Shown here in pieces: positions 40,676 through 45,049 of a stretch of 45,049 bases of DNA. Within the stretch, counting starts at the first letter, position 1. Every line of letters begins with the position of its first letter. Source of the stretch: Desulfobacca sp. (GTDB lineage: Bacteria > Desulfobacterota > Desulfobaccia > Desulfobaccales > Desulfobaccaceae); NCBI GenBank assembly GCA_028695935.1, contig JAQVHY010000007.1, positions 1 through 45,049 on the forward strand. Direction: 5' to 3'. Below the pieces are notes generated by a model, which was given only the letters and a program-made list of their open reading frames with translations, was not told the origin of the DNA and ran no database searches. The position numbers were made by a program, and so were the translations under genes.

Positions 40676-40816
40676 TCAGTTAACTGAGAGCTTCGCCTCA
40701 GGCAAAGGAGGCATGGAGCCGGTAACCACATAACTTTTCATGGCGCTGACGATGGTGTCCAGGGGATCGAGGCCGCGCAACTTGGTGCGCCAGGCCAAGC
40801 TCTGGCGGTTCTAGAT
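40676..40816 (-). pseudogene. C-terminal scrap of a probable transposase
   Basis: A minus-strand frame reads QSLAWRTKLRGLDPLDTIVS and AMKSYVVTGSMPPLPEAKLS, ending with a TGA at 40676. The style matches the tail of some IS transposases, but the family is not certain. A stop closes the frame upstream near 40815, and the second group II intron starts about 60 bases further on, on the opposite strand. Confidence 0.35.
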
Positions 40817-40879
40817 AGATGTAAGGTTCTATCCATGGTAATTGCCTGTTCACCATGAAGTCACGACTCGGCACCAAGG

Positions 40880-42013
40880 GTGACCCGAAGTGTCAAGCGA
40901 GTTGATCAAGGTCATATGACTGAGACAGGATGCAGGCCGCAGCGTGAGCGAACTCGATTCGGCCTCGTTACGCAAATTGGCGGACGGCGACCCTCCCAAG
41001 TTATGGGGAAGCCTGCCACCGGCGTCATCAGACAACAGGAGCGTGGCGCTGGGCCGTCCGGGGTGTTTGGAGGCGGCATGTATCCAAAGAATCGTCAGGG
41101 AACCTGGGAGACCCGGCAGGACGGGTTGGGCAGCAGGTAGCCTCAGCCCAAAGGAGGCAGGGAAATCATAACCTGTTTTCCTGTCCTGGCCGGGAGTCGG
41201 ACCTGCCCATAGTAGCGAGGAAGCGGCTAATCCCCGTGGAGCCAAGGGGCAGGACTTTGATCGTGTTTTCATCAAGAGAGGGAAAGCCGCTTGAACGAAA
41301 GTTCCACTACGGAAGAAGGGTTCAAACCAGAACCCGGTTTGCCCCTGAAGGTTTCTCGCTTGCGCTGGAAACTGGGCCGTAAGGCCAAGCAAGAGCCGCA
41401 GTTCCGGTTCTACGCCCTGTATGATCGGATCTATCGACGGGATGTTCTGGAAACGGCATGGAAGCGAGTCTGTGCCAACGGCGGTGCCGGAGGAGTGGAT
41501 GGCGTGATCATGGCGTCCATCAAGACTCGGGAAGGTGGAGTCCAACTGCTGCTGGATGAAATTGAGCAGGAGTTGAAGGCGAAAACCTACCAGCCCCTGC
41601 CGGTGCGTCGGGTGTACATTCCCAAAGCCAATGGCAAGTTGAGACCTCTGGGTATTCCGACGATTAAAGATCGGATAGTTCAGATGGCCGTGCTGTTGGT
41701 GATAGAGCCGATTTTTGAGGCCGACTTTGCCGATTGTTCGTATGGCTTCCGCCCTGGCCGGGGGGCGCATGACGCCTTGACGGCGGTGCCGGATGGCATC
41801 CAACAAGGTCTGCGAGTCGCCTTGGACGCTGATTTGAGCAGCTATTTTGACACCATACCGCATGATAAGCTGATGCGTTGCCTGGAGCGCCGGATTGCAG
41901 ACCGGAGTGTTCTGACATTGATCCGTAAGTGGCTGAAATGCCAGATTGTCGAGAGTGACGGCCATGGCGGCGATAAAACGACGAAACCCAAGCAGGGAAC
42001 CCCTCAAGGCGGA
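40880..42013 (+). mobile_element. Group II intron (second copy), truncated at its 3' side
   Basis: A 5' end of the type GTGAC at 40880 opens a non-coding leader of about 410 bases with the text AAGTGTCAAGCGAGTTGATC and AGGTCATATGACTGAGAC, characteristic of bacterial group II introns. The reverse transcriptase starts at 41291. The intron stops abruptly at 42013, inside the reverse transcriptase motif, where the RIT-like element begins. Domains V and VI are not in the window. It is not a copy of the first intron: the proteins and leaders differ clearly. Confidence 0.82.
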
Positions 42014-42076
42014 TTATGCAAAGCTTTGCATAACGCTCCTTATGCAAAGAAAGTAATTATGCAAAGTAACCAGTAA
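41291..42076 (+). pseudogene. ltrA: Truncated group II intron reverse transcriptase
   Basis: Starting at a TTG, the protein shows GGAGGVDG near residue 67, [20 protein letters not shown] near 112, [14 protein letters not shown] near 150, the catalytic [18 protein letters not shown] near 177, and GTPQGG at the break. After Gly 241 the frame reads into the palindrome of the inserted element and ends after 20 foreign residues. The YADD box, thumb and maturase domain are cut off, so the enzyme is dead. The missing part may lie beyond the inserted element. Confidence 0.92.
42014..42066. repeat. RIT-like left end: 20-bp palindrome plus repeats
   Basis: TTATGCAAAGCTTTGCATAA at 42014-42033 is a perfect palindrome. 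Two further copies of TTATGCAAAG follow at 42040-42049 and 42057-42066. Four half-sites in 53 bases, two of them face to face, look like binding and cleavage sites for the recombinases encoded just downstream. Confidence 0.8.
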
Positions 42077-42178
42077 AATTCCTGACAATTCAAGGGTTTC
42101 TTGTTGATTTGCTTAGCATAATCTCCGCTAATGATGGCTGAGCAAAAGCTCAAAAAATCATTGAAGGAGATATGTTTT

Positions 42179-43408
42179 ATGCAAAAGAAGCCATTGAAAG
42201 AGCTGTTACAGGAGTTGGAGCAGGAGCTACTGCGGCTCGGTTACACCGAAGGCTCCATGAAGTTTTACCGCAACCGTTGGAAGAAGATCATCCGATTCGC
42301 CCAAGAACTGGGTGAAATCTATTATTCCGAGCAGCTTGGAATCAACTACGTCGAACACCATTATCAGATCCTTGAAAAGGATTTTGGCAAAACCTTATCC
42401 CAGAAGGACACACAGGAGCTCCGCATCATTCGTATGCTTGGAGACTTCCAGCTCCATCACCCTGTTCTGAGACGGTACTATAAGCATAGGGAACTGCTTG
42501 CAGATTCCTATTACATGGGCGTCAGCAAAGGTTTTAGAAAATACTGCGAGCACAAGGGGTATTCCAGAGTAACCGTAGATCATTACGTTAAGCAGTCGGA
42601 GCGTCTCATGGATTATCTTGTTTCCCAGGGAATCCGTGACTGCCGTGGTGTCGAGCTTCCTCTCATCAATGGATATATACGGACTCTGGCCGGATACACC
42701 TATAAAACCGTAGAACAGAACATCTGTTCCATACGTTCTTTTTTAAGATATCTGCAGGAGCAGGACATCCTGAAAACAGACCTGGCCTCTAAGACACCGA
42801 TGATTCAGGCTCGCAAGCAGACACGCATCCCATCCGTCTGGACGAAAGAAGAGTTGGATGCGCTGATTGGTGCCATTGACCGAGGAAATCCAAAGGGAAA
42901 ACGGGACTATGCCATTATTCTCCTTGCCTGCGTGTTGGGTCTTAGAGTTACTGACATCAAAAACCTTGCCTTTGGCTGTTTCCACTGGGAGGCAAAAAGA
43001 CTGATATTTATCCAGTCAAAAACAAGGGAAACAGTAACCCTGCCGATTCCTTCCGAAGTTGGATGGGCTGTCATTGATTATCTGAGGTATGGCAGGCCCA
43101 AAGTGGATTCTCCTATTCTTTTTGTAAGGCATGTGGCACCATTTCTGCCCTTTTCAGAAGGCGATCATCTGTATCAGATAATCCGCGATTATATGCGGAT
43201 TGCACATCTGCCTACTTTAAAGAAGCACCGTGGCATGCACTCTCTCCGCCATACGGCAGCTTCAAGAATGCTTGAACATGACACTCCGCTTGCTGTCATC
43301 TCGGATATCCTGGGTCATACGGACACGAACTCTACAGCAGTTTATTTGAAGGTCGACGTCAATAAACTGAAAGAATGCTGTCTGGATACTCCGGAGGTGC
43401 GCTCATGA
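42179..43408 (+). CDS. Tyrosine recombinase, first of trio (RitA-like)
   Basis: The ATG at 42179 follows AAGGAG nine bases upstream; the frame is open from 42131 but that part is probably untranslated. The 409-residue protein has an N-terminal core-binding region and a C-terminal catalytic domain. The catalytic residues appear as CVLGLRVTD (Arg I), HRGMHSLRHTAAS (His-x-x-Arg), ILGHTDTNSTAVY (His and the nucleophile Tyr). All are present, so it is likely active. Its stop overlaps the start of the second gene (ATGA). Confidence 0.9.
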   Translation: MQKKPLKELLQELEQELLRLGYTEGSMKFYRNRWKKIIRFAQELGEIYYSEQLGINYVEHHYQILEKDFGKTLSQKDTQELRIIRMLGDFQLHHPVLRRYYKHRELLADSYYMGVSKGFRKYCEHKGYSRVTVDHYVKQSERLMDYLVSQGIRDCRGVELPLINGYIRTLAGYTYKTVEQNICSIRSFLRYLQEQDILKTDLASKTPMIQARKQTRIPSVWTKEELDALIGAIDRGNPKGKRDYAIILLACVLGLRVTDIKNLAFGCFHWEAKRLIFIQSKTRETVTLPIPSEVGWAVIDYLRYGRPKVDSPILFVRHVAPFLPFSEGDHLYQIIRDYMRIAHLPTLKKHRGMHSLRHTAASRMLEHDTPLAVISDILGHTDTNSTAVYLKVDVNKLKECCLDTPEVRS

Positions 43409-44391
43409 GAAACTACCTGTTCAGTGGTCCATTTGCAGAGCACATCAAGAACCATGTCCAGTTGAAGCAGGCGGTTGGGTATAAATATGAGGCAGAAGCA
43501 GAGCATCTGTTGAGATTTTCCTCCTTTAGCGCTGAAAAATATCCCGAAGCATCGATCCTTTCAAAGGAAATAGTGCTGGAGTGGTGCTCAAAAAGGAATT
43601 ATGAGGCACAGGCCAACCAATGTGCAAGATCCTCCATCCTGCGGCAGCTTGCCATGTATATGGAAGGTATTGGGATTGGCGCATACGTCCTCCCAAAGGG
43701 ATATTACCCGGCAGCACAGCAGTATGTCCCTCACATCTATACGGAAGATGAACTGCAGCGCTTCTTCCATCAGACAGATCAATGTCGCTAGGTCAGTGGA
43801 TGTCCATATCGTCATCTCATCATGCCGGTATTCTTCCGGATGGTTTATGCCTGCGGCCTTCGCTCTTCGGAAGCAAGGCTTCTGAAGGTAGAAGATGTGG
43901 ATATGGATGCAGGCATACTGGGCATTCAGCACTCAAAGAAAGACAACAGCCGTTTGGTTGCGATGTCAGACGAGCTTACGGGCCGATGCAGGGACTACTC
44001 TGAAAATGTGCATAGACTCTCAAAGGGATCTGATTGGTTTTTCCCAGGACTGCATGGAAAGCCAATGACCATAGGAAACATCTACCACAATTTCAGGCGA
44101 TTCCTGTGGAGAGCCGGCATTTCCCACGGCGGGAGGGGAAAAGGCCCAAGGGTCCACGATTTTCGTCATACATATGCCTGCCACTGCCTGAAAAAATGGG
44201 TGCTGGAAGGAAAAGACCGCGCTGCATATCTTCCTGTACTGAAAACATACATGGGGCACGCTTCCTTTGAGGAAACAGCCTATTACCTCAGGCTTACAGG
44301 TGATATCTTTCCGGACATATCCATTAAACTCGAAGGATGTTATCCCAATATGATCCCTCGACTGGAAGGTGATGGCGATGAAACCTACTGA
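43405..44391 (+). pseudogene. Tyrosine recombinase, second of trio (RitB-like), with in-frame stop
   Basis: ATG 43405 has GGAGG seven bases upstream. The frame runs to a TAG at 43789-43791 (after QTDQCR) and then continues in the same frame to 44391. Both parts together make a full-length recombinase of about 328 residues. Downstream of the stop lie YACGLRSSEARLL (Arg I), RVHDFRHTYACH, TYMGHASFEETAYY with the nucleophile Tyr. The stop removes the whole catalytic domain unless it is read through or the reading is an error. No shift of frame is involved. Confidence 0.88.
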
Positions 44392-45049
44392 TTTTGCTAC
44401 TCACCTTACGGAATTCCTATCCGTGTATCTGCCACGGCAGAAAAACGCCAGCAGCAATACGATAGCATCCTACCGTGATACCTTTAAACTGCTGCTCCGC
44501 TTCTGTCAGGGACAGAAGGACATACCAGTCGAAAAGCTGAATATGGACATGCTGACCCATGTAATGATTGCTGATTTTCTTGAATGGCTTGAAGAGGAAC
44601 GTAAATGCAGCACTGCAACCAGGAACCAAAGGCTTGCAGCCATACATTCCTTTTTCAGGTATGCCCAATACGAGGAACCATCTGGAATCCTTCATTTCCA
44701 AAAGGTAATTGCCTTGCCGGTTAAGAAGGCATCCAAGCCGTCGGTACCGCATCTGACACCGGAGGCAATGAAACTTTTGCTGTCACAGCCCGATAAAATG
44801 ACTGTGAAAGGCAGAAGAGACCTGACGCTTTTGAGCGTCCTCTACGATTCCGGATGCAGAGTGCAGGAATTAGCCAATCTCAGGGTACGGGATGTTGTAC
44901 TGGACAATCCGGCAGTGCTTATCCTCACCGGAAAAGGCTACAAGGTTCGCAGGGTTCCACTTATGAAAAACACGCTGGCTTTGCTACAACGTTACATCCA
45001 GGAGCATTCTCTTGATAAACCTTGGAAGTATGACTATCCGCTCTTTGTC
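44378..45049 (+). CDS. Tyrosine recombinase, third of trio (RitC-like), partial
   Basis: The ATG at 44378 lies inside the end of the second gene (14-base overlap). The frame is open to the window edge, 224 codons. The N-terminal SAM-like core-binding domain is visible (FLSVYLPRQKNASSNTIASY, then FLEWLEEERKCSTATRNQR). The first catalytic block DSGCRVQELANLRVRDV carries Arg I. The remaining His, Arg and Tyr blocks lie beyond the window. Confidence 0.88.
   Translation, partial: MKPTDFATHLTEFLSVYLPRQKNASSNTIASYRDTFKLLLRFCQGQKDIPVEKLNMDMLTHVMIADFLEWLEEERKCSTATRNQRLAAIHSFFRYAQYEEPSGILHFQKVIALPVKKASKPSVPHLTPEAMKLLLSQPDKMTVKGRRDLTLLSVLYDSGCRVQELANLRVRDVVLDNPAVLILTGKGYKVRRVPLMKNTLALLQRYIQEHSLDKPWKYDYPLFV

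Follow-up and report, generated by a model that had tools for sequence, protein, structure and literature searches.

The split reverse transcriptase gene and its recombinase neighbours

The window (the whole stretch of DNA analysed, 45,049 nucleotides from Desulfobacca sp.) is the entire contig C34 of a 3.17 Mb genome assembled in 201 contigs. A group II intron reverse transcriptase (RT) frame in it is open as far as the residues GTPQGG and ends at 42013, and a RIT (recombinase-in-trio) element starts at the next base. The N-terminal part of the RT, counted from the start of the open frame, lies on the plus strand at 41291..42013, inside an open reading frame (41291-42076, plus strand) whose last 63 bases belong to the element end and not to the RT. 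The residues up to 42013 matched RVT_1 (9.7e-21) and TIGR04416 (6.5e-70; profile positions 2-185 of 353), the latter at 236 bits against a cut-off of 300, a shortfall expected because the protein is cut short; the match to TIGR04416 on the N-terminal half identifies an intron-type RT. This protein has a 52% identity to an intact Mesorhizobium ltrA as far as GTPQGG. The two glycine codons of PQGG, GGCGGA (42008..42013, plus strand), make up the 6-bp core of the junction on the RT 5' side, and the break falls directly after them. A previous sequence-only reading of this DNA had proposed a RIT-type element within a group II intron RT, which is borne out by RVT_1, TIGR04416 and three recombinase genes, and a clean break following GTPQGG at 42013, which proved exact, with a palindrome (TTATGCAAAGCTTTGCATAA) running from 42014.

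A putative group II intron RNA region covering domains I-IV was located 5' of the RT at 40823..41073 (plus strand) with the Rfam model RF02005 (group-II-D1D4-6). The match spans the full model (1-225) at 37.3 bits (E 5.4e-9), under the gathering score of 49; it appears by E-value alone, and the search of the window at the gathering threshold gave zero intron RNA matches. An IS-transposase-like fragment (LRGLDPLDTIVSAMK) was recognised by eye on the minus strand at 40682-40828, its end being the intron start, and on this basis the window may hold a nest in the order transposase, intron, RIT. A second RT of group II type is present at the left end of the contig (662-1909) as an uninterrupted 445-residue open frame.

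The left end of the element consists of a 20-bp perfect palindrome, the spacer (42014..42033), which in relatives always lies on the RT 5' side, followed by a second, inverted core or 'scar', CGCTCC (42034..42039, minus strand), whose reverse complement GGAGCG reads Gly-Ala, and by the element end proper (42040..42066, plus strand) with two arm repeats TTATGCAAAG (42040-42049 and 42057-42066). The window holds this left end of the inverted repeat and palindrome layout; in relatives both ends show it, the far one carrying arms that match in inverted form. Next come three adjacent tyrosine recombinase genes in the RIT order A-B-C on one strand (42179-45049, plus), all with Phage_integrase matches, and they show the short overlaps of RIT genes, an ATGA shared by ritA and ritB (43405-43408) and about 20 bp shared by ritB and ritC. 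ritA (42179..43408; 2.6e-24) is read from the ATG at 42179, from which relatives align, the start of the ORF caller being 42131. RitA has a complete set of catalytic residues, with R272, K297, H370, R373, H396 and Y405 (numbering of the 425-residue open reading frame) invariant in a four-row alignment. ritB (43405..44391) contains an in-frame stop at 43789-43791, and intact homologues of it are present in loci L040, L042 and L043. ritC (44372..45049; 9.6e-12) is partial, cut by the contig end ahead of the part coding for the catalytic His-Arg-His-Tyr.

The contig stops inside ritC at 45049, and neither the right element end nor a remainder of this RT is present in the assembly; the expected places of the maturase domain and of intron domains V-VI, 3' of the RT, likewise fall past the contig end. 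A search of the genome with the ritC fragment returned itself and a 28%-identical recombinase on contig C50 and nothing else, and a query with an RT C-terminal half returned just two other RTs (C34:1280 and C155), without the missing half. A 237-bp ritA piece with 99.6% identity to window positions 42171-42407 was present on contig C196 (14380-14616; locus L003). Unrelated sequence lies on both sides of it and neither of its edges is an element end; it is either a chimeric assembly or a rearranged fragment.

The insertion site in related RIT elements

Relatives were collected in one scan of 84,980 species genomes with an alignment of RitA from the window and from Rhodococcus, Agrobacterium and Cupriavidus plasmids, a scan that was unable to favour any target because the RitA sequence was the sole query. 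229 stretches encoded RitA relatives. The best 80 of the 229, picked by similarity to the window RitA, were examined together with the window and four plasmid loci (one of them fetched once the Rhodococcus insertion had already been seen), giving 85 RIT loci whose counts are not descriptive of all RITs. Flanks were scored using RT halves from the window and Rhodococcus, junction parsing, reading of the flanks and, for some unclear cases, Pfam. Group II RTs were the target at 66 of the 85 loci and other sequences at 12 (L038, L066, L069, L076, L077, L084, L093, L094, L104, L110, L112, L117), with seven unassignable where the flank was absent, very short or masked (L041, L043, L047, L048, L056, L099, L108). 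A comparison with other RIT insertions, as the sequence-only reading had proposed, thus placed 66 of 78 readable loci in group II RTs. The RT assignment came from a parsed RT 5' junction at 48 loci and from an adjacent RT half at 18. L091 and L092 were counted by an adjacent RT half (with a GIIM domain for L091), carry undetermined labels in the RitA tree and both have a damaged ritA; L116 was classed by eye from AVSPVLANLFMHYAFDKWL, with Pfam giving no match on 36 residues of another frame.

The 48 loci yielded 52 parsed junctions, as an RT 5' half was present on both sides of the element in four of them (L059, L080, L097, L113); the set excludes L104, L043, L056, L071 and L081 and includes junctions with changed Pro codons. 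All 52 were at the same two codons, the Gly-Gly/Ser of PQGG or PQGS, and had a core of six bases, GGN-GGN or GGN-TCN, directly before the insertion. The codons before the core were Pro-Gln in nearly all cases (the CA of Gln in 51/52, the two C of Pro in 49/52 and 47/52), and an exact CCNCAR ahead of the core was found at 48 junctions, one being the non-RT locus L104. The element was in sense orientation at 33 of the 52 junctions and antisense at 19. The earlier suggestion that the site is conserved and matters is upheld by these counts: this RIT lineage usually inserts there, and the window junction is no single odd event.

The RT resumed directly after the two core codons in all 21 loci with both RT halves usable, and on the 3' side of the element in these loci the inverted arm CTTTGCATAA or a variant stood just before the core. 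Intact Streptomyces and Mesorhizobium RTs aligned across the rejoined halves, and the exact empty site on which the earlier reading had placed value was supplied by these relatives, in which the RT is continuous past the two codons (21/21). At the four loci with double RT 5' flanks, inward-pointing RT halves flank the RIT, each with its own palindrome, and these are perhaps inversions between two element copies.

In L061 (1058/3655) and L062 (9979/12442) the same RTs carry a further break, made by a large serine recombinase gene at the conserved YFD motif (near RT residue 187), and a tyrosine recombinase array was present at about the same motif in L055. On the basis of these three loci, YFD is another point at which insertions into intron RTs recur.

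The RitA tree (a quick method on 86 rows, with long branches flagged) showed RT-targeting elements in at least two of its large clades. RT-targeting elements were found in Bacillota, Actinomycetota, Thermodesulfobacteriota, Pseudomonadota, Chloroflexota, Lentisphaerota and others, with the proviso that the labels of metagenome-assembled genomes may be wrong. A degenerate junction pattern occurred in one of 395 genomes of the phylum, the Desulfobacca genome of the window. Viral contigs gave zero relatives in single-protein scans with RitA and RitC and no matches in an exact palindrome search. An alignment scan of the viral collection gave four loci: one RIT in an RT (RitA 43% identical), two RITs outside RTs (29-32%) and one too distant to judge.

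The preference for RTs is not absolute, because five of the 12 non-RT loci (L066, L069, L076, L077, L104) fall inside or beside RT-targeting clades. The site at L104 resembles the RT site at the DNA level (CCGCAAGGTGGT), and two RT queries found no RT there. At L076, on a contig from a Flavobacteriales metagenome-assembled genome, an RT-clade RIT lies off target at the core CCTGAG; other frames of this contig look eukaryotic by eye, and the contig is likely contamination. Outside the RT-targeting clades, RIT lineages had ends of the same build at different conserved motifs. L093 interrupts an istB gene of IS21 type, the joined flank reading AGVPGTGKTHM, and the break in L094 is at the identical Walker A position, while L110 and L112 lie at a single point of a PcfJ-like gene in opposite orientations.

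Cores, palindrome and the route of insertion

In both element orientations, each parsed RT junction had its 20-bp palindrome on the side of the RT 5' half. Beyond it lay the second inverted 6-bp core, with Gly-Gly, Gly-Ser or Gly-Ala as its reading at 50 of 52 junctions. First and second cores were unequal in 32 of the 52, and in 30 of those 32 the second core still read Gly-Gly, Gly-Ser or Gly-Ala; in the other 20 the palindrome plus core made a near-perfect inverted repeat of the target core. The outer cores of the 5' and 3' sides were unequal in 15 of the 21 two-sided loci, which rules out a simple target-site duplication such as the earlier reading had proposed to define.

Four near-identical RIT copies are carried by the chromosome of Neobacillus sp. 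PS3-12 in four different intron RTs (40-56% identical in the three pairs measured), one sense and three antisense. Their 5' core was GGAGGC in all four copies and their 3' cores were GGAGGT, GGTGGA and GGTGGC in three copies and GGAGGC in the fourth (L053), as if the element core were kept on the 5' side and the target core on the 3' side. Measured against the element, the imperfect palindrome points the same way in all four of these copies, whether the insertion is sense or antisense. The second core of the antisense L078 equals the 3' core of the sense L055, which would fit a descent of L078 from the L055 site, although with few wobble positions the identity could be due to chance. We also considered the second core as a pure memory of the last target, an idea weakened by the off-target L076, where the second core is the local core; equal cores at this locus are explicable by core-core exchange after insertion or by a copying mechanism.

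Nearly the same intron is present in three Rhodococcus plasmids, with the element in one orientation or the other. Two of these plasmids match over 1.4 and 2.4 kb of flank but have the element inverted, and this difference in orientation may be an inversion in place. In the third (L135, from about 6517), the RIT at the same RT site is interrupted by recombinase genes of a second trio-like element.

The junction layout, together with the varying 6-bp core that the inverted arms enclose, suggests integration by tyrosine recombinases through a 6-bp crossover and a palindromic attP. In the proposed route the three recombinases would excise the element as a circle whose joint reads arm-core-palindrome-core-arm, the palindromic attP consisting of two 6-bp cores flanking the 20-bp palindrome. 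RitABC would then pair one of these cores with a GGNGGN or GGNTCN in the recipient RT gene; the strand exchange would run over the six bases and tolerate wobble mismatches, and because it covers six bases the outer cores may differ. Either core would be usable, giving both orientations, with the spacer and the unused core always left on the RT 5' side; the constant direction of the Neobacillus palindrome is what such a circle predicts. Core-core recombination at a later stage may turn the spacer or the whole element round, or remove the element again. The intron would lose its own RT, and the element would gain a target conserved from phylum to phylum, with host genes left unharmed. The circular form, the step at which each recombinase acts, the activity of any copy and the benefit to the element are what we infer from these arrangements. 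The window copy itself weighs against the account in having one end only and a stop in ritB, as does L076, whose equal cores a plain circle would not give unless cores were exchanged afterwards, and neither an excised circle nor transposition was observed. Overall we consider it probable, with good confidence, that the left part of a RIT element is present in the window, inside a group II intron RT, and that it comes from a lineage specialised for the PQGG/PQGS codons and moving by way of a two-core circle.

Four other accounts were weighed against this one. An assembly join in the window contig, or a scar left there by a deletion, either of which the sequence-only reading had kept as an alternative, would agree with the contig end 3 kb past the junction, the fall in G+C content at the junction and the out-of-context 237-bp ritA piece on C196, but the same layout of RT core, palindrome, inverted core and arm recurs in 47 other loci, including the complete Neobacillus chromosome and complete Rhodococcus plasmids, and makes such an origin extremely unlikely. 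The shared site could also reflect common descent, if RIT and intron had been joined once and travelled together as a composite element. A few pairs do share both parts, for example L036 and L114 (RitA 84%, RT 81%). Against this, RitA identity and RT identity showed next to no correlation (r = 0.15 over 300 pairs, drawn from the 25 loci having 120 or more RT residues), the 132 pairs with RitA at least 60% identical had a median RT identity of 40%, no congruent RT and RitA trees were seen, both orientations occur, and the near-identical Neobacillus elements occupy different RTs; a composite is scarcely credible.

Loose target choice followed by survivorship would have RITs inserting widely and persisting in dispensable mobile-element genes, hence the excess in RTs. 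Other RIT lineages do lie in mobile-element genes (IS21 istB in L093 and L094, PcfJ in L110 and L112), and published work places RITs in IS66 tnpA and radC (PMC2864759) and in a Tn6049-type transposase (PMC3414803). Survivorship cannot, however, explain one codon pair at 52 of 52 RT junctions or the repeated exact PcfJ and IstB points, and as the whole explanation it is very improbable; it may act in addition to targeting. Less easily dismissed, though still unlikely, is a formation of the second core and its spacer during insertion, through copying of a strand or processing of a hairpin (for instance a single-strand or copy-out route) in place of a two-core circular attP. The 20 junctions with a near-perfect inverted repeat of the target core agree with it, as does the same layout at the off-target loci L038, L076, L084, L093 and L110, and copy-out movement has been proposed for the related SEs in PMC10214605. 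The 32 junctions with differing cores speak against it, with 30 of their second cores reading Gly-Gly, Gly-Ser or Gly-Ala as if carried from another RT.

A wider reading, possible but somewhat short of probable, is that RITs are hyperparasites, each lineage adapted to the codons for a single conserved motif in a gene of another mobile element (RT PQGG, IS21 IstB Walker A, a PcfJ motif) and spreading through a two-core palindromic attP, with the unused core recording the former target.

Relation to RIT elements and other mobile elements

We regard the finding as a genuine target preference, exact and repeatedly seen, in an element of a known kind, and its mechanism can be tested. Descriptions of RITs go back to 2009, and the exact target, 6-bp core and defined ends make targeting testable at the bench. 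By splitting group II intron RTs in many phyla, such a mobile element could be a check on intron spread, and the PQGG target would be a motif that the RT cannot easily change. RITs with inverted repeat and palindrome have already been described (PMC3414803, PMC10214605, PMC8138268, PMC5385486 and PMC2864759). According to a 2023 review (PMC10214605), RIT target specificity has not been formally tested and the movement is unknown (its Table 1), and RIT transposition has never been reproduced in the laboratory. A full-text search found no paper with both 'group II intron' and 'RIT element', and none of the papers listed by related searches reports this target; the novelty of the group II RT target is provisional, as Ricker 2013 (Plasmid 70:226) and Nielsen 2017 may contain part of it.

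The element resembles described RIT elements (Van Houdt 2009/2012, Ricker 2013) in its A-B-C trio on one strand, its short overlaps, a length of about 3.4-3.5 kb in relatives and its ends with inverted repeat and palindrome (PMC3414803). It differs in having a defined PQGG/PQGS target, an exact core with arms and a rule for the side of the palindrome, whereas RITs described in PMC2864759 and PMC3414803 lie in radC, IS66 tnpA and a Tn6049 transposase. Tn554 relatives, SE and GInt likewise carry several tyrosine-type recombinases together, and a 6-bp footprint is given for SE and Tn554-type elements in PMC10214605; unlike them, the trio here was seen with no fourth protein of the TnpC, Srap or GinD type, occupies other hosts and targets and inserts in both orientations. 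The window shares with bacterial group II introns a putative intron RNA and an RT with the PQGG motif, but its RT gene is split, and splicing or mobility of this intron would need a maturase supplied in trans.
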